Assembly (NCBI GenBank): GCA_030431255.1
Contig: JAUIJL010000038.1
Span: 1 to 56,420 of the forward strand
Length of the DNA stretch: 56,420 nt
Source of the DNA: Thermoanaerobaculia bacterium
Lineage (GTDB): Bacteria; Acidobacteriota; Thermoanaerobaculia; Multivoradales; J023
Reading direction: 5' to 3'
Position 1 is the stretch's first letter; each line of letters begins with the position of its first letter. Position numbers and translations under genes: made by a program. This document shows, in pieces, positions 16,536-56,420 of this stretch. The notes under the pieces were generated by a model. The model was not told the DNA's origin, did no database searches, and saw only the letters and a program-made list of their open reading frames with translations.

Positions 16536-17894
16536 ATGGGCGAACGATTCGCGGTCATGGGAGCCGGGGAGGTGGGCTTTCACCTGGCCCGGACCCTGTC
16601 CAGAGAAGGCCACAGCGTCATGGTGATCGACCTGGACCCCTCTCTTCGGGAGCGGGTAGAAGATGCCATGGACGTCGGCATGGTGTTGGGCAACGGCACC
16701 CACGTGCCGGTGCTCGAGGCGGCCAAGGTCCGAAATTGCGACCTCTTCATGGCCGTCTCCTCCTCGGATGAAGCCAATCTGGCGGCTTCGGTGCTGGCGA
16801 AAAGCCTGGGCGCCAAGCGCTCGGTGGTCAGGGTCGGGATTGCGGACGACGTCACCACCCACCGGCGGACCTACGAAAAGGTCTTCTCCGCTGATCTGCT
16901 GCTGTCGACCCAGCTCCTTTCCACGACGAGAATTCTCAATCACCTCTTGGGTCACAGCACCCTGGCGGTGGAGTATCTGGCCCACGGCAAGGTGCAGCTG
17001 CGCAAGATCCACCTAGAAGAAGGATCTTTGCTCACTCGCAAACCCTTGAGCGAGGTCGATCTGCCCGCCGGCAGCTTGGTGGTGGCCCTATTCCGCGACA
17101 ATGAGCTGATCATCCCGTCCGGCATCGACAAAGCCCAGGTGGGAGATCACGCGCTGATCCTCTGCCGGTCGGAATCCACCGGCAAGGTGGAGCGCATGGT
17201 GAGCTCCCAGGGCCGGCACTACGGCACGGCCATCATTGCCGGAGGCGGTATCACCGGCCACACCGTAGCCCAAGCTCTCGAAGGTCACGTCGACCAAGTG
17301 AAGATCATCGAGCGTGACTACCAACGGGCCGAAAGCCTGGCCCAACAATGCCCCAACTTCGAGGTGATCCACGGCGACGCCAACGATCTCAATCTGCTCA
17401 AAGCCGAGCGCGCCCACGAGGCGCGGTCGTTCGTCGCGTTGACGGGCAACGACGAGCAGAACCTGATGGCGAGCTTGTTGGCCCAAGAGCTGGGGGTTCA
17501 GACCGTGGTCGCCTTGGTGCAGCGCGCCGAGACCTCCCACCTGTGGAAGAAGCTCGGGCTGATGAATATCGTCTCGCCCCGCAGCATCGCGGCGGAGCGG
17601 ATCCAGAGCTACATCCGTAGCGGCTACAACGCCAATATCGCGTCGTTGAAAAGCGGCCAAGCACAGATTTTGGAACGCACCCTGGCCCCGGCCAGCCCAG
17701 CGGTAGGCTGCTCCTTGGCGGAAATCAAACCGCCTCGCGGCATTATTTTCGGAGCGGTGGTCCGCGGAGAACGCGTCTTCGTGCCCAGAGGCCCGGATCG
17801 CCTGGAAGTCGGCGATACCGTGATCATCTTCACTCAGGTGGAGCACTTGCCGACGGTGCAGCTCCTTTTCCCCGGCCGCGAGCCCGCCTCCTGA
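16536..17894 (+). CDS. trkA: Trk potassium uptake regulatory subunit TrkA
   Basis: 452 aa, close to the usual full length. The start is ATG 16536 (a TTG codon precedes it in frame), with AAGGAAG 4 nt upstream. Two tandem RCK units are visible. The first nucleotide-binding fold is VMGAGEVGFHLARTL with acidic VIDLD at the end of strand 2, followed by its C-terminal ligand-binding half. The second is IIAGGGITGHTVAQAL with KIIERD. TrkA binds NAD(H) or nucleotides on the cytoplasmic face of the membrane and gates the TrkH channel. trkH follows after 21 bp on the same strand. Confidence 0.95.
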   Translation: MGERFAVMGAGEVGFHLARTLSREGHSVMVIDLDPSLRERVEDAMDVGMVLGNGTHVPVLEAAKVRNCDLFMAVSSSDEANLAASVLAKSLGAKRSVVRVGIADDVTTHRRTYEKVFSADLLLSTQLLSTTRILNHLLGHSTLAVEYLAHGKVQLRKIHLEEGSLLTRKPLSEVDLPAGSLVVALFRDNELIIPSGIDKAQVGDHALILCRSESTGKVERMVSSQGRHYGTAIIAGGGITGHTVAQALEGHVDQVKIIERDYQRAESLAQQCPNFEVIHGDANDLNLLKAERAHEARSFVALTGNDEQNLMASLLAQELGVQTVVALVQRAETSHLWKKLGLMNIVSPRSIAAERIQSYIRSGYNANIASLKSGQAQILERTLAPASPAVGCSLAEIKPPRGIIFGAVVRGERVFVPRGPDRLEVGDTVIIFTQVEHLPTVQLLFPGREPAS

Positions 17895-38906: not shown

Positions 38907-38942
38907 GTGGAGAGGTAGCAGCCCATGCCGTAAGATCTCTGC

Positions 38943-39648
38943 ATGCCCGATCCTGAAACTCGGCACGATTCAGAAGACTCCGACAGCCGGGCTGCTCACC
39001 GGGAGGAGCTTCGGAGGCCTGCGCCTGGATCCAGCGAGCCGGCCCAGGGGACGGCTGAATCCCGGGACTCGGTTCAGTCGAACCCCCTCGACGACACCGA
39101 TACCCGTGATCGCGGAAGAGGTCTGCCTCCTCGCCAACACCGTTCCGAGGATCCGACCACCGAGCCTTTGGCGATCGGCTCGAGCCTGGGTCGATTTCGC
39201 CTTGAGAAGTTGATCGGCCAAGGAGGCATGGGTCGCGTCTACGAAGCCAGGGATCCTCGACTACGCCGCCAGGTAGCGATCAAAACCCTCCGTCTGCAGG
39301 ATCCGGCATCGGTCCACCGCTTCGTGCGTGAGGCCCGGCTCCAAGCCAGTGTCAACCATCCGGGAATCTGCCCGGTCTTTGAGGTCGGCGAGCACAAGGC
39401 CACGCCCTACATCGTCATGCAGCTCCTGCACGGCAAACCCCTGGACGAGGCGTCGGAGGGGCTGCATCTCGAACAAAAGCTGGTGCTCGTTCGCCGGGTC
39501 GCCGAAGCGGTGCACGAAGCCCACCGGGCGGGATTGATCCACCGCGATCTGAAGCCGTCGAATATCTTGGTCGAGTCGAACGGACCACGCCGTTGCATCC
39601 GAAAGTGTTGGATTTCGGGATCGCTCGTGCCGCGGGCGAGGCAGTGGC
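38943..39648 (+). pseudogene. Broken duplicate of the large Ser/Thr kinase gene (frameshift and truncation)
   Basis: It is nearly identical to the start of the intact kinase at 43375; homology covers about 38907-39648 against 43339-44046, and over the kinase core only a few bases differ. A single C is missing at 39585-39587 (GGACCACG instead of GGACCCACG), which shifts the frame just after HRDLKPSNILVES and destroys the DFG segment. The similarity ends abruptly inside the codons for 'AAGEA', exactly where one copy of the GAAATGCCTGGCAC element begins. Everything after the break, including APE, lobe C and all tail repeats, is lost. Glycine loop, Lys and HRD are present but the product cannot be active. 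The low divergence points to a recent duplication or gene conversion. Confidence 0.9.
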
Positions 39649-39665
39649 ACAGAAATGCCTGGCAC
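39645..39665 (+). repeat. RAYT-type repeat unit at the kinase break point
   Basis: TGGCAC-AGAAATGCC-TGGCAC forms the junction between the truncated kinase copy and unrelated DNA. The core AGAAATGCCTGGCAC is shared with the array at 43157, the in-gene copies at 44977 and the copies next to the transposase at 56148. Confidence 0.85.
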
Positions 39666-39741
39666 AGCGCCAGAGGACGGCGGCCCGTCGAGCCGTGCCG
39701 GGCAAGATGCCGGCTCCAACACGACGGGCCGAGCCGTCGAA

Positions 39742-40053
39742 TCAACGGTCTTCGATCGGGAAACAAGAACAGGTCGAGGTGAAGCTGCTGCACCGACCGA
39801 AATACCTAGGTCCGCAGGACCCACACGGCAGGTCGCACTGGACGTCAGACCCACAGGACACAACTCCGATAGAGCAACCCCCGAAATCCGCGCCGGTCTC
39901 ATCCGCCCAATCCCCGTATTCCAACGGAAAAACCCAAGACGAAAAATCGACTCCCGAAGGCTGAATCTCGACGACCGGACCCTCCGACTCCAAGGCAAGG
40001 ATCGAAGACACGACAAACATCAACACAAGGGCGAGCCAAAGCGACTTCTTCAT
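39742..40053 (-). CDS. Small secreted Cys-rich protein
   Basis: 103 aa. The start at ATG 40053 has GGAGA about 5 nt upstream and opens a strong signal peptide (MKKSLWLALVLMFVVSSILA). The mature part of about 80 residues has an acidic, aromatic first half and eight cysteines in the last 50 residues, in the order GGC, VSC, VQC, LPCGSC, GRC, STC, SC, which suggests disulfides or a metal site. No family was recognised. It lies 128 bp downstream of the sigma factor-kinase pair on the same strand and may be an output of that module. Beyond its end lie about 75 bp and then the repeat unit and the broken kinase. Confidence 0.7.
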   Translation of the reverse strand: MKKSLWLALVLMFVVSSILALESEGPVVEIQPSGVDFSSWVFPLEYGDWADETGADFGGCSIGVVSCGSDVQCDLPCGSCGPRYFGRCSSFTSTCSCFPIEDR

Positions 40054-40181
40054 AACATCTCCACACGTTTTGCACCGGACGGCTCCGGCGAGGCTCAGGG
40101 ATTCCTGGGCATGGGTTGGATAGGCCACCACACTGCGTGGGGCCGTCTATCCACGCCACCGTCGTTGACCCGAAAAGAACC

Positions 40182-42353
40182 TCAACTTTTTTCAGCTCGG
40201 CCTTTTCGGGACATTCGAGACCACCGGTCACGACAATCCTCCACCTCAGGTCCGGTCGAGCCCAAGGCGTCATAGATTTGCACCGCCTCGTCTAAGGCCT
40301 TCCGGGCCGGACCGCGACGGCCGTCTTCGATCAACGCCGGACCCAGAGCACATAGAGATTCCGCTAAATGGACGTGCCCACCACCCAAAACCGCGCGACG
40401 ACGACGCACCACATCCTGCATGCGGTGAATGCCTTCCGCGCGACGGCCCTGGGCCAACAGCCTCGCCGCCAGCACGTGGGCCACATAGAGAGTCCGCGGG
40501 TCGTCTTCCCCCCACTCTTGCAGGGCCGCTCCATAGGCCTCAAGCAACCGCCCTTCCGCCTCGGCCTTCCCCCGCTCCGCCAGCAACATCCCCAACAACA
40601 TCCGAGACTCGGCAAAAAGCGAGCGCGACTCCGGGGTGTCGACCCATTCGATCTCGCTCTCGACCGCCTTCCGATACATCCTTTCAGCCTCGGCGTATCG
40701 ATTCTGTCGATGGTAGGAACGTCCCAAGGAAAGGACCACCTCGAGACGCTTCACCTCGTCAGGCGAATCTTGTAGATGAAAACGGTCCAGCGCTCGACGC
40801 AGCACGGACTCGGCTTCCCGACTTCGCCCGGCAAAGGTCAACCCGTCGCCGAGCAAGACCTCGGCATCCACCAAGCGTTGATCCGCAGGCCCCAACGCGG
40901 ATCGATAAAGCTCGTAAGCCTGTTCCAACAGCTCGAGACTCTCTTCGGCTCGCCCCCGGTTGCCGTAAAGGCGACCGAGTGACTTGAGGATGCCCGCCTT
41001 CAGCAAGGGCGCGTCATCGAGACGCAGCCGCTCCAAGCTCGTCACCAGAAGCTCCTCCAGCGTCTTAGGAGACTCCGTTCCGGCCACATAAGGATCGAGC
41101 TCGGAAAAGAGACGGGTGACGGAATCGACGATCTCGACCCCTTTGTTACGCTCGTGCTCCAAACGGCGACGGGACTGCTCGCGGTCCACCACCACCCAGC
41201 CCACGGCCGTCAACATAACCAACGCCGCCGCAACAGCGCGGTATTGGCGCCGGACCAACTTGGTCAGCCGGTAGAGCCAACCACCGGCACGAGCACGCAC
41301 CGGCCGATTTTCAAGAAAGCGCTCTAAATCCTGGTAGAAAGCCTCCGCGGACGGATACCGCTGCACCGGATCCTTGCGCAAAGACTGAAGCACGATCGCG
41401 TCCAGATCTTTGGGTAGACCCGGGCAGTGATGGGACGGTGGTGGAGGATCTTGCTCTAGAACGGCCTTGAGCAGACTAAGTGGCTCGGTCACTTCCTCGA
41501 AGGGGCGCCGAGAGGTCAACAGCTCGTAAAGCACCACGCCACAACTGTAAATGTCGACGGACGTCGAGCTTTCCGCCATGGCCAGCTCTTCTGGCGCGGC
41601 ATATTCCGGCGTCAACATACGCTTACCGTCGAGGGTGACCGTTTTCGGTCGCAACGACTCCGGATCCAGCAGCTTGGAAATGCCGAAATCGAGAATCTTG
41701 GGGCGCCCGTCGTCGCCGACTAAGATATTCTCCGGCTTCAAGTCCCTGTGCACCACCAGCTTACGGTGGGCGTAGGCTAGGCCTGCCAGGACGCGGCTCA
41801 TCAACCGCACACACTCCACAGGATCGACGCGTCCCAGACGGCAATATTCCTTGATGCTCCATCCTTCAATCAGCTCCATGACCCAATAGGGACGATTGTC
41901 CTGGCCCAGTCCACCCCCGAGAATGCGGGCAATATTCGGATGCTCCAGCCCGGCTAGAATGTCCCCCTCTCGTTGAAATCGGCGCAAGACCTCCTGGTCC
42001 TCCACGCCGTAACTGAGCAGCTTGACGGCCACCGGCGGTGCTTCATCAGAGTCCGTCCGGCGGCCTCGAAAGACCCTTGACGTGCCCCCGCACCCCAGCT
42101 CTTCCTCAAGTCGATAAGGCCCCAGCTGGGTAGGGGTAGACGTCGGCTGAGCCGGGAACAGCTCGAAGACCGTCTGCTCCGCCTTCCACAATGCAGAGGA
42201 ACGAACCGCCAAGAGGCGTTCGACCTCACGCCGTAACGGAGCATCACAGCCTATTGCTTCGAGCCACGTCTCACGCTCGGACGCCGGCAGCTCCAGACAG
42301 TGGGCGAGCAACTCGTCGACCCGTCCTTGGTCGAGGTCGTATTCCGTGCTCAA
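40182..42353 (-). CDS. Membrane-anchored Ser/Thr protein kinase with TPR-like tail
   Basis: 723 aa from TTG 42353, chosen because the TTG overlaps the sigma factor stop as TTGA and the protein then begins normally (LSTEYDLDQGRVDELLAHCL); the open frame extends 31 codons further inside the sigma gene. N-terminal helical segment to about 75; kinase domain about 80-365 with loop GCGGTSRVF, K111, HRDLKPEN (D204), DFG (222-224) and AAPEE; one membrane helix at about 388-408; then a shorter array of TPR-like helices (about 430-700; AEESLELLEQAYELYRSALG). The P-loop has Cys-Gly-Gly-Thr-Ser instead of the usual GxGGMG. Sigma factor and kinase form an operon, as is typical for this subfamily. Confidence 0.92.
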   Translation of the reverse strand: MSTEYDLDQGRVDELLAHCLELPASERETWLEAIGCDAPLRREVERLLAVRSSALWKAEQTVFELFPAQPTSTPTQLGPYRLEEELGCGGTSRVFRGRRTDSDEAPPVAVKLLSYGVEDQEVLRRFQREGDILAGLEHPNIARILGGGLGQDNRPYWVMELIEGWSIKEYCRLGRVDPVECVRLMSRVLAGLAYAHRKLVVHRDLKPENILVGDDGRPKILDFGISKLLDPESLRPKTVTLDGKRMLTPEYAAPEELAMAESSTSVDIYSCGVVLYELLTSRRPFEEVTEPLSLLKAVLEQDPPPPSHHCPGLPKDLDAIVLQSLRKDPVQRYPSAEAFYQDLERFLENRPVRARAGGWLYRLTKLVRRQYRAVAAALVMLTAVGWVVVDREQSRRRLEHERNKGVEIVDSVTRLFSELDPYVAGTESPKTLEELLVTSLERLRLDDAPLLKAGILKSLGRLYGNRGRAEESLELLEQAYELYRSALGPADQRLVDAEVLLGDGLTFAGRSREAESVLRRALDRFHLQDSPDEVKRLEVVLSLGRSYHRQNRYAEAERMYRKAVESEIEWVDTPESRSLFAESRMLLGMLLAERGKAEAEGRLLEAYGAALQEWGEDDPRTLYVAHVLAARLLAQGRRAEGIHRMQDVVRRRRAVLGGGHVHLAESLCALGPALIEDGRRGPARKALDEAVQIYDALGSTGPEVEDCRDRWSRMSRKGRAEKS

Positions 42354-42982
42354 AACCGCTTCCCGTCGGCGCAGCCGACCGGAGACTCTTCTCTGGCCGG
42401 CACAGATTCCAAAGCCGCTGCCAGACGCCGGCGAGCAACGCTCCACAAACGCTCGACAGTGGCCAAGGACAAGCCAAGAGTCGAAGCGATCTCAGAAAGC
42501 GTCATACCGGCAAAAAATTTGAGCTCGACGACACGGCTCTGGCGCGAATCGTAGGCCTCCAGCCTGCGCAACACCTGGTCGACGATCACCACGGTCTCTA
42601 GATCGATCCCTTCAGCCTTCGGGTCAGTCTCCAATGCCTCCGCGGACATTTTCTCGACCTGCCCTCCCCGCTTCTGACGTCGCTGAGCATGGGCATGGTC
42701 TACCAGTAGGTCGCGCATGAGCTTCGACGCAAACGCAAAGAAATGACCTCGGCTGTCGAAACCACGCAACTTGGCGCCGACGAGCTTGATAAAGGCTTCG
42801 TGGATCACCTCGGTCGGCTGCAACGTGGAAAATCCGCCTTGCCGCAGATGGAAGTGAGCCAGTTTTCGCAGCTCCGGCAAAACGAGCGGTGTCAGCTCGT
42901 CCACGGACCCGTCGACACCAGCGACCCAACGTCTCAACAGCCGCGTTAGATCCGTTGGCTCGGACGAGCATTCCTGCACCAT
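42350..42982 (-). CDS. ECF-type sigma factor of the kinase-associated subfamily
   Basis: 210 aa. The start at ATG 42982 has AAGGAG 9 nt upstream. Region 2: LRKLAHFHLRQGGFSTLQPT, EVIHEAFIKLVG, FFAFASKLMRDLLVDHAHAQ; region 4: SRQSRVVELKFFAGM and the helix-turn-helix LSEIASTLGLSLATVERLWSVAR. The LQPTEVIHEA and LLVDHA blocks mark the same subfamily as the protein at 11605. The stop overlaps the kinase start (TTGA), so the two are made together. This matches the ECF/kinase pairing in which the kinase phosphorylates the sigma factor or its region; that mechanism is inferred here. Confidence 0.92.
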   Translation of the reverse strand: MVQECSSEPTDLTRLLRRWVAGVDGSVDELTPLVLPELRKLAHFHLRQGGFSTLQPTEVIHEAFIKLVGAKLRGFDSRGHFFAFASKLMRDLLVDHAHAQRRQKRGGQVEKMSAEALETDPKAEGIDLETVVIVDQVLRRLEAYDSRQSRVVELKFFAGMTLSEIASTLGLSLATVERLWSVARRRLAAALESVPAREESPVGCADGKRF

Positions 42983-43047
42983 GATCGTGCACTCCTTCCC
43001 CACAAGATGACTCTGATTCGTGGCGGATGATACACAGAAGCCGGGCA

Positions 43048-43156
43048 GCTCCACCAAATCGCGATTCTTCTTTGTGCCGGCACGGCACCCGCATGGGAGA
43101 CCTCACTGGCAGACCGGCCGGTCTTGGTTTACCTGCTGAATCAATGGATCGAGCGG
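43048..43156 (+). pseudogene. Fragment of a sugar nucleotidyltransferase gene
   Basis: The DNA aligns with the first 145 bp of the nucleotidyltransferase gene at 50742: TCGCGATTCTYCTTTGTGCC, then ACGGCACCCGCATGGG, then GACCGGCCGGT-like and TACCTGCTG. The start codon is lost, one base is missing in the GTRMG signature region (so the frame shifts), and about 36 bp in the middle are deleted. It ends exactly where the 18-bp array starts. It is a relic of a second copy, not a gene. Confidence 0.75.
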
Positions 43157-43250
43157 CACCACAGAAATGCCTGGCACCACAGAAGTGCCTGGCACCACAG
43201 AAATGCCTGGCACCACAGAAGTGCCTGGCACCACAGAAGTGCCTGGCACC
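43157..43250 (+). repeat. Perfect 18-bp tandem array, five units (RAYT-type repeat)
   Basis: Five units of CACCACAGAARTGCCTGG follow each other without gaps, plus a closing CACC. The only variation is A or G at one position (A, G, A, G, G). The core GTGCCTGGCAC is a palindrome around a central T. Because 18 is a multiple of three, all reading frames through it stay open; the repeated short peptides this gives in both strands are artefacts. Confidence 0.95.
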
Positions 43251-43256
43251 GCTATT

Positions 43257-43308
43257 GGGCACTGCTAGTGCCCGCCGAAGTGCACCGCCCGAAAGTATCG
43301 GGCGGTGC
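43257..43308. repeat. Two adjacent perfect hairpins next to the 18-bp array
   Basis: GGGCACT-GCT-AGTGCCC (43257-43273) is followed after 8 bp by GCACCGCCCGA-AAGTA-TCGGGCGGTGC (43282-43308), an 11-bp stem. They share GCAC/GTGC ends with the array. Such paired hairpins are the shape recognised by Y1/RAYT transposases. There is no T run, so termination is less likely. Confidence 0.7.
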
Positions 43309-43374
43309 CGCTGTCGGGCGAAGTGTTAGACACAGGCAGTGGAGAGGCAGCAGACCATGCCGTAAGATCTCTCC

Positions 43375-46300
43375 ATGCCCGACCCTGAAACACGGCACGG
43401 TTCAGAAGGCCCCAACAGCCGGGCTCCTCACCGGGAGGAGCTTCGGCAGCCTGTGGCCGGATCCGGTGAGGCGGGCCCAGCCAATCCCCTCGACGACGAT
43501 ACCGATACCCGTGATCGCCAAAGGGGTGTGCCGCCTCGCCAACACCATTCCGAGGATCCGACCACCGAGCCATTGGCGATCGGCTCGAGCCTGGGTCGAT
43601 TTCGCCTTGAGAAGTTGATCGGCCAAGGAGGCATGGGTCGCGTCTACGAAGCCAGGGATCCTCGCCTACGCCGCCAGGTAGCGATCAAAACCCTCCGTCT
43701 GCAGGATCCGGCATCGGTCCACCGCTTCGTGCGTGAGGCCCGGCTCCAAGCCAGTGTCAACCATCCGGGAATCTGCCCGGTCTTTGAGGTCGGCGAGCAC
43801 AAGGCCACGCCCTACATCGTCATGCAGCTCCTGCACGGCAAACCCCTGGACGAGGCGTCGGAGGGGCTGCATCTCGAACAAAAGCTGGTGCTCGTTCGCC
43901 GGGTCGCCGAAGCGGTGCACGAAGCCCACCGGGCGGGATTGATCCACCGCGATCTGAAGCCGTCGAATATCTTGGTCGAGTCGAACGGACCCACGCCGTT
44001 GCATCCGAAAGTGTTGGATTTCGGGATCGCTCGTGCCGCGGGCGAGGCCGATCTGACCCGCGACGGTGAGGTGGTCGGCACTCCTGCCTATATGGCGCCC
44101 GAGCAGGTCCAAGGCAACGTCGAGCACCTCGACCGGAGGACCGACGTCTATGCCCTGGGAGCCACCCTGTATCGACTGCTCGCAGGCAGGCCGCCGTTTG
44201 CGGAAACCGGCCCCGCGGCCTTTGTGCAGGTGTTGAGCAACGAGCCGGAATCCCTGCGCAAGCATCGGGTGCCCAAAGACGTCGAAGCAATCGTCTTCAA
44301 ATGCTTGGAAAAGCAACCGCACCGGCGCTACGGCTCGGCCCGGGAGCTGGCTCGAGATATCGACGCCTACCTGGACGGCCTGGAGGTGTCGGCGCGGCCG
44401 ATCAACACCTGGTATCGGTTGCAGAAGCAGCTTCGGCGACAGAAAGTCGCCGTGCGAGTCGGGGGAGTCTCGGCCTTGCTGCTGGCCGTCGCCCTCGGTT
44501 GGGGAGCCCATACCGCTCAACAGGCCGAAACTCGCGAAATCCTCGCACGAAAGCTCACGGAGCAAGTGGAGGAAATCGAAGCCCTAGTGCGCTACTCCCA
44601 CCTGTCGCCTCCCCACGACATCCGCCCGGATAGAGCCCTGCTGCGTCGGCGGATGGATGCCATCGCCCAAGCCATGGTCGAAGCGGGCAAAGTGGGTAAC
44701 GGCCCCGGCCACTTCGCCCTCGGCCGCGGACTCCTGGCCTTGGACAAGCTCGAAGAAGCCCAAAGGCATCTTCAGATCGCCTGGCAAAGCGACTACCGAG
44801 AACCGGAAGTCGCCGCGGCCATGGCTCAGACCCTCTCGGCTCTCTACCGGGAACGATTGACCGAAGTCGAGCTGGGGGGCGACTGGCAGGCCCGACGCCA
44901 CCAAATCGCTGAGCTGCAAAAGACCTACGGTCATCCGGCCCGCACCTTTCTCGCCGCCATCGAAGAGCGCGACGTCGAAATGCCTGGCACCACGGAAGAG
45001 ACCTCTGCGGAAGTGCCTGGCACCACGGAAAAGACCCCTACGGAAGTGCCTGGCACCATGCCTGCGGAAGTGCCTGGCACCGAGCCGTCTGAAACCGAGC
45101 CGTCTCCTGAAAGTCTGCTGCTCCGCGCGCTGAGCTTGTTCCACGACGATCAATTCGACCGCGCATTGGCCGTGTTGAAACAATCCACGACCCAGCGGGC
45201 TTGGTCCTACGAGCTCCTCCGACTGGAAGGCGATATCCACCGAACCTGGGCCGTCCAACATCATGCGGAAGGTCGAAGCGACGACGCCCTCAAATCCTTT
45301 GAGCAAGCTCGAAAGGCGTACGATCGAGCGGCGGCCGTCGCTCAGAGCGATCCCGCGATCTATCGAGCCGGCGCCCAGGCCGTGTTTCAGCAACTTTCTC
45401 TCGAGCTGGAGGCCGGGGTCGACTCTGAGGCTCTGTGGCAGGAAGGCCTGGCTCGTCTCGATCAAGCCCTCGAGATTCAACCCGATCTCAGTGATGCCTG
45501 GCTGTGGAAATCCCGCTTCCATCGCGTGGCTGCACAGCTCAAGCGACGCCGCGCCGTGGATCCCGTGGAGGACTTGAAGGCGGCGATTCAAGCTGCAGAG
45601 CAGGCAAAACGAAGCGACGACTTCCGCTCGAAAGCATGGCTCGAGCTGGCGCGGGCCTATTGGAGCTGGGGCCAGTGGTCGTTGGAACGGGGGGAAGACC
45701 CCATCGCCCGGCTCGACCAAGCCGACCGAGCCTTTGAGGAGGTCGAGCCTGAAAAGCGATCGTATTCCTATTGGGTCGCTGTGGGCATGGCGCAGTCGAC
45801 CCGGGCGGAGCATCTGGTCACCCGCGGCGAGCCGGCACTGCCGAGCTTCGATCGGGCCGCGGATGCCTTCCGACGAGCCGCCGAGCAGCATTCGGCCCCG
45901 TTCGCGGCTTGGGTGAATTTAGGTATCGGCCTCTTCAAGGCCTCCTCGGCGCACGGCAGGGACGATGCTGAAACCCTGCTGAAGAAGTCGATTCACGCCC
46001 TGAAGCAAGCGGAGTCTTTACGGCACGACCACGTCGTGCCTCCGTACTATCTGGGACTCTGCCACCTCCACCTGGCTCAGGGCGGTGACCCGAGCAGCGG
46101 TCACCTCGACGCCGACGGCGTGAGCCGAGCCGTCGATCACTTCCGTCGAGCCCAGGAGCTCGCGCCCAATATGTTCCAGCTCCACGCCGCCCTGGGAGAG
46201 ACCTTTCATGCGCAGGCCATCCATCAATGGGAGCGGGGCGAGCATCCCGACGATGTTTTCGCCCGCGCCCGACGTCACCACCGTCGCGCCATGGAGTTGG

Positions 46301-46938
46301 CTCCCGATAGCCCGATCCCTCCCCTCAATCTTGCCTGGACCGCCTACTTCGAAGGAAAAGTGCTGCTGAAGGCGGGGCAGGATCCGCGATCGTCCCTCGA
46401 CGAGGCCGAGCGATTGGTGGATCAAGTCTCCCTTTCGCTGCACTCGGAAGGACAACGGGCGTGCGCCGGCAGCATTCTCCGGCTGCGCGGGGAGTGGCAG
46501 CTGCACCTCGAAAGGGATCCTGAGCCGTTTTTCGCAGACGCGGAAGAAATTTTCGTCGCTTTGGTCGAGGACAACCCGCGCTCCAGTGAAGCGCACCGCT
46601 CGCTGGGCCGTATCTGGACCCGCCGCGCCGAGCGGCTCTCTTCCCTGGGTGGCGAACCGCAAACCGCATTTGCCCGGGCACGGGATCATCTGGATCGCAG
46701 CCTGGAGCTGAGCCCCCAAAACGCCTATTACCTTTTTGCCAGCGCCCGCTGGCACCTCAGCTATGCCACCTGGCTCGGCACCGGAGCCACGGCCCCCTCC
46801 GCCCACGGATCCGATCCGTTGGCGTCCGCCCTCGCCGATGCCCGATCGGCCCTACAGCTTCGGCCGCAATGGCGAGAAGCCGCCGAGCTGGTAACCCTTA
46901 TCGAGTCACGATCCTCAGCGGCTTCTCCCGACGCCTAG
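43375..46938 (+). CDS. Large Ser/Thr protein kinase with repeat-rich tail and in-frame repeat insertions
   Basis: 1187 aa. An acidic, disordered N-tail (1-70) precedes the kinase domain at about 75-345: GQGGMGRVY, K105 in VAIK, HRDLKPSN (D193), DFG (215-217), APEQ. One membrane helix lies at about 360-380. The remaining 800 residues are helical repeats (TPR/Sel1-like, for example SLLLRALSLFHDDQFDRALAV and DHVVPPYYLGLCHLHLAQGG). Between them, residues 535-569 form a Pro/Gly/Thr linker with four (M/V)PGT units encoded by four copies of the GAARTGCCTGGCACC element. No good ribosome-binding site is visible before the ATG, although the same ATG context is kept in the broken copy at 38943. It is transcribed alone and converges on the next gene with a 7-bp gap. 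Confidence 0.92.
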   Translation: MPDPETRHGSEGPNSRAPHREELRQPVAGSGEAGPANPLDDDTDTRDRQRGVPPRQHHSEDPTTEPLAIGSSLGRFRLEKLIGQGGMGRVYEARDPRLRRQVAIKTLRLQDPASVHRFVREARLQASVNHPGICPVFEVGEHKATPYIVMQLLHGKPLDEASEGLHLEQKLVLVRRVAEAVHEAHRAGLIHRDLKPSNILVESNGPTPLHPKVLDFGIARAAGEADLTRDGEVVGTPAYMAPEQVQGNVEHLDRRTDVYALGATLYRLLAGRPPFAETGPAAFVQVLSNEPESLRKHRVPKDVEAIVFKCLEKQPHRRYGSARELARDIDAYLDGLEVSARPINTWYRLQKQLRRQKVAVRVGGVSALLLAVALGWGAHTAQQAETREILARKLTEQVEEIEALVRYSHLSPPHDIRPDRALLRRRMDAIAQAMVEAGKVGNGPGHFALGRGLLALDKLEEAQRHLQIAWQSDYREPEVAAAMAQTLSALYRERLTEVELGGDWQARRHQIAELQKTYGHPARTFLAAIEERDVEMPGTTEETSAEVPGTTEKTPTEVPGTMPAEVPGTEPSETEPSPESLLLRALSLFHDDQFDRALAVLKQSTTQRAWSYELLRLEGDIHRTWAVQHHAEGRSDDALKSFEQARKAYDRAAAVAQSDPAIYRAGAQAVFQQLSLELEAGVDSEALWQEGLARLDQALEIQPDLSDAWLWKSRFHRVAAQLKRRRAVDPVEDLKAAIQAAEQAKRSDDFRSKAWLELARAYWSWGQWSLERGEDPIARLDQADRAFEEVEPEKRSYSYWVAVGMAQSTRAEHLVTRGEPALPSFDRAADAFRRAAEQHSAPFAAWVNLGIGLFKASSAHGRDDAETLLKKSIHALKQAESLRHDHVVPPYYLGLCHLHLAQGGDPSSGHLDADGVSRAVDHFRRAQELAPNMFQLHAALGETFHAQAIHQWERGEHPDDVFARARRHHRRAMELAPDSPIPPLNLAWTAYFEGKVLLKAGQDPRSSLDEAERLVDQVSLSLHSEGQRACAGSILRLRGEWQLHLERDPEPFFADAEEIFVALVEDNPRSSEAHRSLGRIWTRRAERLSSLGGEPQTAFARARDHLDRSLELSPQNAYYLFASARWHLSYATWLGTGATAPSAHGSDPLASALADARSALQLRPQWREAAELVTLIESRSSAASPDA
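44977..45081 (+). repeat. Four in-frame RAYT-type repeats inside the kinase coding sequence
   Basis: GAAATGCCTGGCACC at 44977-44991 and GAAGTGCCTGGCACC at 45010-45024, 45043-45057 and 45067-45081. Starts are spaced 33, 33 and 24 bp, all multiples of three, so the frame is kept and reads E(M/V)PGT each time. The spacers encode Thr/Glu/Ala-rich residues. Confidence 0.95.
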
Positions 46939-50741: not shown

Positions 50742-51560
50742 ATGTCCCACCGAGTCGCGATTCTCCTTTGTGCCGGTTACGGCACCCGCATGGGTGAGCT
50801 CACCCGCCACACCCCAAAGCCGCTCCTGAGGGTGGCGGATCGGCCGGTGCTGGACTACCTGCTGGACCAACTGGTCGAGCTACCAGACCTGCACGGGATC
50901 CACTTGGTCAGCAATGAGCACTATGCGGCGGAATTCGAGCTGTGGGCGGCGGGACATCGCGACCGATTGGCCCGAAAAGAGCTCGATCTCCAGGTCCACA
51001 ACGACGGTACCGTCGACAATAGCGACCGGCTCGGGGCGATCGGCGATCTCGGCTTCGTGCTCGACCGGCTGTCAGCCGAGCCTCCAGCCCTCGACGGAGC
51101 TCTGATCTGCGCCGGTGACAACATCCTCCGCTTTTCCCTAGGACCCCTGTGGCAGCGCTTCCTCGATCACGGCGAAACCACGGTGTTGGCCATGGAAGAA
51201 CGAGATCCGGGCCGTCTCAGACGCACCGGTGTGCTCGAGCTGAACGCCGAGGACCGTGTGCTCAAGCTTTGGGAAAAACCCGAAAACCCGCCTTCCACCT
51301 GGGCTTGCCCCAGCTTTTACACCCTTGGACCCAGGGCGCTGGCACGGGTTCGACGCTACCTGGACGACGGCAATGCCCCGGACGAGATCGGACGGCTCAT
51401 CGGCTATTTGGCCGAGCTGCCCGCGGAGCATCAGCGGGTTTGGGCCATCCGGACCCGAGGCGAGCGCCTGCACGTCGGCAACGCCGAGGCTTTACGCCAT
51501 GCGGACGAGCTGCTGCGGCGGGAAGACGTGCTGATCGAAGCAGCAGCGCTCGCTCACTGA
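50742..51560 (+). CDS. Sugar-1-phosphate nucleotidyltransferase
   Basis: 272 aa. It contains LCAGYGTRMGELTRHTPKPLL, the GxGTRxxxxT...PK signature of the nucleotidyltransferase fold, then NDGTVDNSDRLGAIGDL, CAGDNILRFS (metal-binding Asp of the active site), EKPENPPSTWACPSFYTL, and a late segment RTRGERLHVGNAEAL. The length and motifs fit a bacterial glucose- or mannose-1-phosphate nucleotidyltransferase; the base and sugar cannot be told apart. GCAGGAAA lies about 8 nt before the ATG. A frame-shifted fragment of a related gene is present at 43048-43156. The gene stands 48 bp before a DUF1304 gene on the same strand. Confidence 0.88.
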   Translation: MSHRVAILLCAGYGTRMGELTRHTPKPLLRVADRPVLDYLLDQLVELPDLHGIHLVSNEHYAAEFELWAAGHRDRLARKELDLQVHNDGTVDNSDRLGAIGDLGFVLDRLSAEPPALDGALICAGDNILRFSLGPLWQRFLDHGETTVLAMEERDPGRLRRTGVLELNAEDRVLKLWEKPENPPSTWACPSFYTLGPRALARVRRYLDDGNAPDEIGRLIGYLAELPAEHQRVWAIRTRGERLHVGNAEALRHADELLRREDVLIEAAALAH

Positions 51561-56143: not shown

Positions 56144-56186
56144 CTGAGAAATGCCAGGCACCCTGGCCTGAGAAATGCCTGGCACC
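56144..56186 (+). repeat. Two RAYT-type repeat units upstream of the transposase gene
   Basis: CTGAGAAATGCCAGGCACC (56144-56162) and CTGAGAAATGCCTGGCACC (56168-56186), 24 bp apart. They differ only in the central base of the palindrome TGCC(A/T)GGCA. They match the core of the 43157 array and the in-gene copies. Confidence 0.9.
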
Positions 56187-56327
56187 TCCCACTCCGATTT
56201 TTCTACGGAAATTTTCCCAAAGCGCAGAATTGAAGAGCATTTTTACGTCCAATCTTCTTAGGAAGGGGCAGAAGCGTAGCTTCGGAGACCGAGATCTTTC
56301 GGAAAACCCTTTCATAGGAGGATTGCC

Positions 56328-56420
56328 ATGGGTAGAGAGCTTCGATTCGTTCCCCCCAACAGCCTGCAGCACGTCACCGACGTCACCTTTCAAAACCGCC
56401 ACTTCTTGCGTCCCTCCAAG
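56328..56420 (+). CDS. REP-associated Y1 (tyrosine) transposase, 5' end only
   Basis: The window ends after 31 codons. AGGAGG lies about 6 nt before the ATG. The N-terminus, GRELRFVPPNSLQHVTDVTF followed by FLRPS, is the typical opening of Y1_Tnp/RAYT transposases, single-domain HUH-type enzymes that cut and rejoin single-stranded DNA at REP-type hairpins. The HUH motif and the catalytic Tyr lie outside the window. The conserved element GAAATGCC(T/A)GGCACC lies 140 bp upstream. Confidence 0.85.
   Translation, partial: MGRELRFVPPNSLQHVTDVTFQNRHFLRPSK

Follow-up and report, generated by a model that had tools for sequence, protein, structure and literature searches.

Tandem gene duplication is known to be accompanied by pseudogene decay and by gene conversion between the copies. 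Palindromic elements that lie within genes are known as well, as in the case of the RPE of Rickettsia. REPs have been described inside coding regions, where the clusters encode 43 to 82 residues, and GTAG repeats have been associated with RAYT (PMC3733652); RAYT genes flanked by two inverted REPs have also been described (PMC2817692).

The stretch of DNA analysed here (the window) is the whole of contig C34, 56420 bp in length, of a draft genome of 10.19 Mb in 54 contigs (G000). It contains remnants of two genes: A', which derives from the 5' part of a kinase gene (A), and NT', which derives from the 5' part of a nucleotidyltransferase gene (NT). The two remnants lie in the same order and orientation as A and NT, a repeat stands at the end of each of them, and the identity between A' and A changes in one sharp step. 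The locus resembles a tandem duplication with decay in that it has direct-repeat paralogs a few kb apart, of which one is degenerate and carries a homogenised stretch, but it differs in that nothing of the first copy would remain except its two ends, both of which stop at the same repeat subtype. Our preferred reading, to which we give a probability of about 0.45, is that a local tandem duplication took place long ago and that A' and NT' are what is left of the ends of one of its copies, which was broken at repeats and later partly converted.

As in REP/RAYT systems, the repeat is short, present in high copy number and often clustered, its adjacent units may pair as a hairpin, and it occurs close to a clade of RAYT-like transposases and in the same genomes as that clade. 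Unlike in those systems, it has no GTAG/CGTC head as a rule, more than half of the sampled clusters lie in genes, and the transposase genes are mostly not located between two inverted copies. With the intragenic palindromic elements, that is REPs in genes and the Rickettsia RPE, it shares the occurrence in reading frame within proteins; its sequence and its preferred frame are, however, different from theirs.

A truncated kinase copy with a sharp step in identity

Gene A (43375-46938, plus strand) is an intact Ser/Thr kinase-TPR gene encoding 1187 aa. A' (38907-39642, plus strand) aligns with 43339-44048, its homology starting 36 bp 5' of the ATG, and the alignment of 737 columns contains 31 mismatches and 28 gap columns, which corresponds to about 92% identity. 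Apart from A itself, no sequence in the genome matched A' at more than 72% over more than 100 bp, and shorter matches to kinase motifs reached up to 88%. The divergence is distributed very unevenly along the copy. The best single change point falls after 39167; 204 of the 234 columns to its left are identical (30 mismatches), compared with 474 of the 475 columns to its right (one mismatch), and none of 500 column shuffles reached the observed likelihood ratio. In the 5' part, divergence is 13% and four gaps (27 columns) occur, and the mismatches are spread about equally over the three codon positions (9, 8 and 10 of 66). At third positions, 10 of 66 sites differ on the left and 1 of 158 on the right, where about 24 would be expected at the left-side rate.

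Because selection on the protein would not equalise silent sites, the right part of A' was probably homogenised after the copies had diverged. Gene conversion between A' and the intact A, which the initial annotation of this locus had proposed, is well supported by the comparison of the two copies, because the identity step between these diverged paralogs is sharp and includes the silent sites. The same annotation had described the copy as nearly identical over about 700 bp and had suggested a recent event as the alternative to conversion. The former description is not confirmed, as the copies are nearly identical only to the right of 39167, and the latter is not supported in view of the 13% divergence and four gaps of the 5' part, because of which the duplication itself appears to be old, and older than the homogenised stretch.

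The loss of one C near 39586, also noted before, is borne out: the C run at 39585-39586 is one base shorter than in A and causes a frameshift. Because the missing C sits within the homogenised part, either it was lost after homogenisation or the loss was not transferred. The reading frame of A' runs from 38943 to 39782 (279 aa) and keeps the HRDLKPSN loop. As the frameshift puts the DFG stretch out of frame and the remainder of the kinase domain is absent, A' is unlikely to encode a working kinase, and we take it as a probable pseudogene; its Pfam kinase match ends at position 135 of the 263 positions of the profile.

An identical stretch of this kind could also come from the assembler. The last 127 bases of the window and those of contig C45 are the same as the first 127 bases of contig C3, and for the window the match does not extend to 128, which marks a branch of the assembly. 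The contigs look like the product of a de Bruijn graph with k=127, probably built from short reads. The mismatch-free stretch 39261-39584 is longer than 127, and in such a graph it would consist of shared nodes in which small differences could be merged. Nevertheless, it is very improbable that the assembler created either the identical stretch or the 3' end of A'. A' has sequence of its own in the 13% diverged 5' end, at the one-base loss and at the junction, and a linear path through the direct repeat permits no other order unless a free circle exists; both of these points come from reasoning and not from reads. Moreover, merging could hide a few differences but could hardly make a step from 13% to near 0%.

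Both remnants end at one repeat subtype

The homology of A' to A stops within a codon: its last base is 39642, which corresponds to the second codon position at 44048 in A. A repeat unit, TGGCACAGAAATGCCTGGCAC, designated r, occupies 39645-39665 on the plus strand and thus starts two bases beyond the homology end, which confirms the earlier observation that homology is lost inside a codon at a repeat.

The second remnant, NT' (43051-43154, plus strand, 104 bp), had not been mentioned before. It was recognised by self-comparison of the window. Its first part (43051-43106) is 88% identical to 50747-50803, and its second half (43107-43154), after a 29-base gap, is 77% identical to 50833-50880. 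Both segments belong to NT (50742-51560, plus strand), an intact nucleotidyltransferase gene with the Pfam domain PF00483, which is the source or the sister of NT'. The local alignment score was 84, compared with a maximum of 30 among 500 shuffles, and NT was the sole match besides NT' itself in the genome-wide search at E 0.001. The final base of NT' is 43154 and, directly at 43155, a tandem array of an 18-bp repeat begins, which comprises 5.3 units (43155-43250, plus strand). A hairpin-rich spacer (43251-43338; fold z -5.90) separates the array from the first base of the A homology and has no long match in the sampled part of the genome.

The 18-mer pattern CACAGAARTGCCTGGCAC occurs exactly at r and in five units of this array (43160-43249) and nowhere else in the 10.19 Mb; two further places differ from it by one base. 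The previous claim that the junction ties the loss of sequence to the repeat therefore stands as an association, both decayed fragments ending at one repeat subtype, and not as a statement of cause, and the repeat could have entered an A' junction that already existed.

In one rival explanation the repeat played no part: A' was cut by an ordinary deletion, and the repeat either arrived at the junction afterwards or had been an intergenic neighbour before. In favour of it, an array of the repeat (EMPGTTEETSAEVPGT...) lies in frame within A at 44978-45080 (plus strand), is absent from the ortholog in the related genome G003 and from the homolog in the MAG Acidobacteriota bacterium OFTM268, adds about 39 residues relative to the G003 ortholog, and entered without loss of flanking homology. 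In addition, the 1.57 Mb of the genome that were sampled showed no general tendency of genes to be truncated at repeats. What speaks against an uninvolved repeat is that both fragments of the window end within 2 bases of a repeat, and about 0.6% of the window positions are as close to a repeat cluster as the two breakpoints are, a figure that is descriptive, as the finding was chosen for its coincidence. We consider it quite unlikely that the repeat was uninvolved.

The minus-strand block between the remnants and the relatives of A

The sequence between A' and NT' begins with a hairpin-forming intergenic stretch (39666-39742), for which the fold of 39660-39745 gave a z of -3.88 and for which no long match was found in the sampled part of the genome. 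It is followed by three genes on the minus strand, convergent with A': a gene which by reading encodes a small cysteine-rich, secreted-looking protein of 103 aa (39742-40053); a second Ser/Thr kinase with TPR repeats of 754 aa (40182-42446), assigned by Pfam and no close duplicate of A; and an ECF sigma factor ORF (42350-43057; Pfam, NCBIfam TIGR02999), whose start is uncertain and which overlaps its neighbours. Searched against the whole genome at E 0.001, the region 39640-40181 matched nothing elsewhere.

Of the relatives of A, the ortholog in G003 has 68% protein identity, measured from residue 50 onwards, and shares two of its downstream neighbours with A (at 37 and 64%). With these shared neighbours, A occupies a conserved position. 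The best matches of A in the six other family genomes, two of which are 81 and 86% complete, did not exceed 68% protein identity and none of them came close to being a copy of A'. In the genus mate G001, the homologs of A are all distant, at 39-41% in protein.

These data bear on another origin of the locus, in which a circle of about 4.4 kb, with part of a kinase gene, r and the minus-strand block on it, integrated by recombination into a kinase gene already present. The result would be two hybrid genes, the first truncated and the second complete. Such an event predicts a truncated copy with its own 5' end followed, in direct repeat, by a complete copy with another 5' end, and this is the observed arrangement. 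Consistent with it, the minus-strand block does not adjoin A in G003 within the 645 bp that the G003 contig holds upstream of the ortholog. The circle would, however, leave NT' and its end at the array unexplained and would not by itself account for the long identical stretch, and family searches of the second kinase and the sigma factor gave no match to a mobility gene. We regard integration of a circle as unlikely.

Proposed origin of the two remnants by tandem duplication

In the preferred reading, a tandem duplication would have extended from 36 bp before A to inside NT. A' would be the head of the first copy and NT' its tail, and the end of NT' would be the duplication junction, marked by the array 43155-43250 and by the spacer before A. 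The interior of the first copy would have been lost, the unrelated minus-strand block now being found there, and r, as one unit of the array repeat, would mark the left breakpoint of this loss. The kinase-domain part of A' would have been made identical to A by gene conversion, either later or in the same process, and the single C would have been lost. We infer from the arrangement that a single duplication made both remnants, that the repeats were the sites of breaking or joining, and that the events took place in this order.

Several features are in favour of this reading. A' is followed by NT' as A is followed by NT, all four on the plus strand, and the remnants are collinear with their intact counterparts. 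The two are similarly diverged where they can be compared (204 of 234 columns for A', 88% over the first 57 bp for NT'); NT' is diverged to a similar or greater extent than the 5' part of A', and the duplication is taken to be old. The same repeat subtype is found at both breakpoints, and the identity step is sharp. Two further points in favour are the conserved position of A and the tandem duplication on contig C15, described below, which likewise combines repeat arrays at the copy edges with a mismatch-free stretch.

Other features are against it. The genes located between A and NT have no collinear nucleotide match in 39643-43050, where only scattered weak translated matches were found. At the left edge of A' there is neither array nor spacer, although an exact tandem copy that included them would have both. 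In the C15 duplication, both copies carry an array, whereas A and NT have no repeat at the positions homologous to the break points. Furthermore, NT' is short, and general tests gave no sign of repeats truncating genes elsewhere.

A rival to this reading is that A' and NT' came from two unrelated events, that is, from separate partial duplications of nearby genes, each ending at a repeat that was present or was inserted, with the collinearity due to chance. In its favour, no remnant of an interior gene is recognisable and A' has no array at its left edge, and with two fragments only, order and strand agree by chance fairly easily. Against separate events, A' and NT' are alike in divergence, strand and order, and they share a repeat subtype that is exact at these two ends only. 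Two independent origins seem rather unlikely, and we retain the single tandem duplication as the preferred reading.

The repeat family in the genome

The pattern AARTGCCTGGCAC was found 118 times as an exact match in the genome of 10.19 Mb, whereas the reversed control pattern was found 0 times. The fold of the single unit r was no better than shuffles (z -0.14), while the folds of two adjacent units (z -2.74) and of the array (z -3.44) both beat them. For further characterisation we used the 73 repeat clusters in a 1.57 Mb sample of the genome, which was chosen around repeats. Within 12 bases of these clusters, GTAG was found in the 5' flank of 1 of the 73 and its complement in the 3' flank of 3, and CGTC was found in 8 and 10. 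According to codon usage, 39 of the clusters lie in a confidently coding ORF and 34 outside, which differs from a mostly extragenic distribution, and 26 of the 39 intragenic clusters are read, on either strand, in the frame that gives VPGT. A full-text literature search for AAGTGCCTGGCACC, including occurrences inside words, found it in none of the papers searched, a search that would miss sequences in figures and supplements.

When the flanks of repeats were inspected by eye (for example at C5 1121 and C53 185567), short sequences often appeared doubled around a GGCACC remnant next to the repeats. The doubling suggests slippage or target duplication.

Repeats and gene ends elsewhere in the genome

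In the 1.57 Mb sample, homology to another place in the sample ended at the edge of 9 of the 73 clusters, compared with 78 of 3000 random placements. As read individually, eight of the nine cases were trivial, the repeat being present in both copies, arrays matching arrays, or the match being a contig-end duplicate. The one clean loss with the repeat in a single copy was A'; NT' was not counted by the scan. At the protein level, homology ended upstream of 16 and downstream of 13 of the 73 clusters, compared with 82 and 74 of 400, in what is a weak test, as the masked middle ends alignments randomly. As most of the edge cases were trivial and the protein-level ends showed no enrichment, general capture or truncation of genes by the repeats was dropped as an explanation; these tests cover 1.57 of the 10.19 Mb and would miss source genes located outside the sample.

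A comparable arrangement was found in the tandem duplication on C15 (L155 2483-6934, corresponding to C15 997482-1001933). Its copies are about 4.4 kb apart, each copy has a repeat array on its left border (block positions 17482 and 21864), and 900 bp with 0 mismatches stand beside windows of about 82-99% identity. The combination of duplication, repeat array and homogenised stretch is therefore not unique to the A' locus. Merging by the assembler could have contributed to the mismatch-free stretch of this pair. That stretch begins 100 to 200 bp from the array and not at it, and the idea that the repeat is a general start point of conversion was discarded.

Among the self-homology rows of at least 600 bp and at least 85% identity, 6 of 7 have a repeat no more than 21 bp from an end in one or both copies. 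This count was set aside as a test, as the rows are few, some represent one event twice, and C30/C9 is one homology split by an unequal array.

Association with RAYT-like transposases

Among the seven family genomes, transposase homologs of at least 53% identity were found in only G000 (7 homologs) and G002 (8 homologs), the homologs in the other five reaching at most 47%. The counts of the repeat follow the same distribution: 118 in G000 and 24 in G002, compared with 1, 5, 1, 1 and 1 in G001, G003, G004, G005 and G006, respectively. The reversed control gave 0, 0, 0, 1 and 2 in these five genomes, where the repeat is thus at or near the control level. The repeat and the transposase clade therefore occur together across genomes. 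In G000, 5 of the 7 RAYT-like genes examined have repeat copies within 2.5 kb, all of these copies being within about 1.1 kb; of 5000 random positions in the same sample, 644 have a repeat within 1.5 kb, a rough comparison, as the sample was chosen around repeats. The NCBIfam REP transposase model matches three of these RAYT-like proteins, below the cut-off. One of the 7 genes has copies on both sides, and there in the same orientation. The term 'RAYT-type' that was initially applied to the repeat is thus fair as an association with the transposase clade, while the repeat is at best a candidate member of the classical REPs, several of whose marks it does not carry.

A wider role of the repeat can be imagined, in which a transposase-associated repeat marks the ends of duplicated segments in this lineage because nicking at the repeat by the RAYT-like enzyme would start breakage and template switching, which in turn would give rise to tandem duplications, gene truncation and conversion of paralogs. 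We hold this to be a long shot. Taken alone, the locus represents ordinary decay of a duplicated gene with gene conversion, plus an interesting repeat at the breakpoints. It gains some weight because a single window holds two gene fragments that end at a repeat subtype exact nowhere else in the genome. The presence of the repeat and the transposase clade in 2 of the 7 family genomes provides a natural comparison for whether such repeats break or duplicate bacterial genes.

Downstream of the gene with which contig C3 begins lies an inverted copy of the repeat, and the ends of C34 and C45, which overlap the start of that gene, carry copies in its orientation; this transposase gene may be flanked by inverted copies if C34 or C45 comes before it. 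At the left end of the window, a 57-bp tandem repeat occupies positions 1-146. At the right end, 56173-56420 runs into a RAYT-like tyrosine-transposase gene, and a repeat unit (56173-56185, plus strand) is located upstream of that gene.
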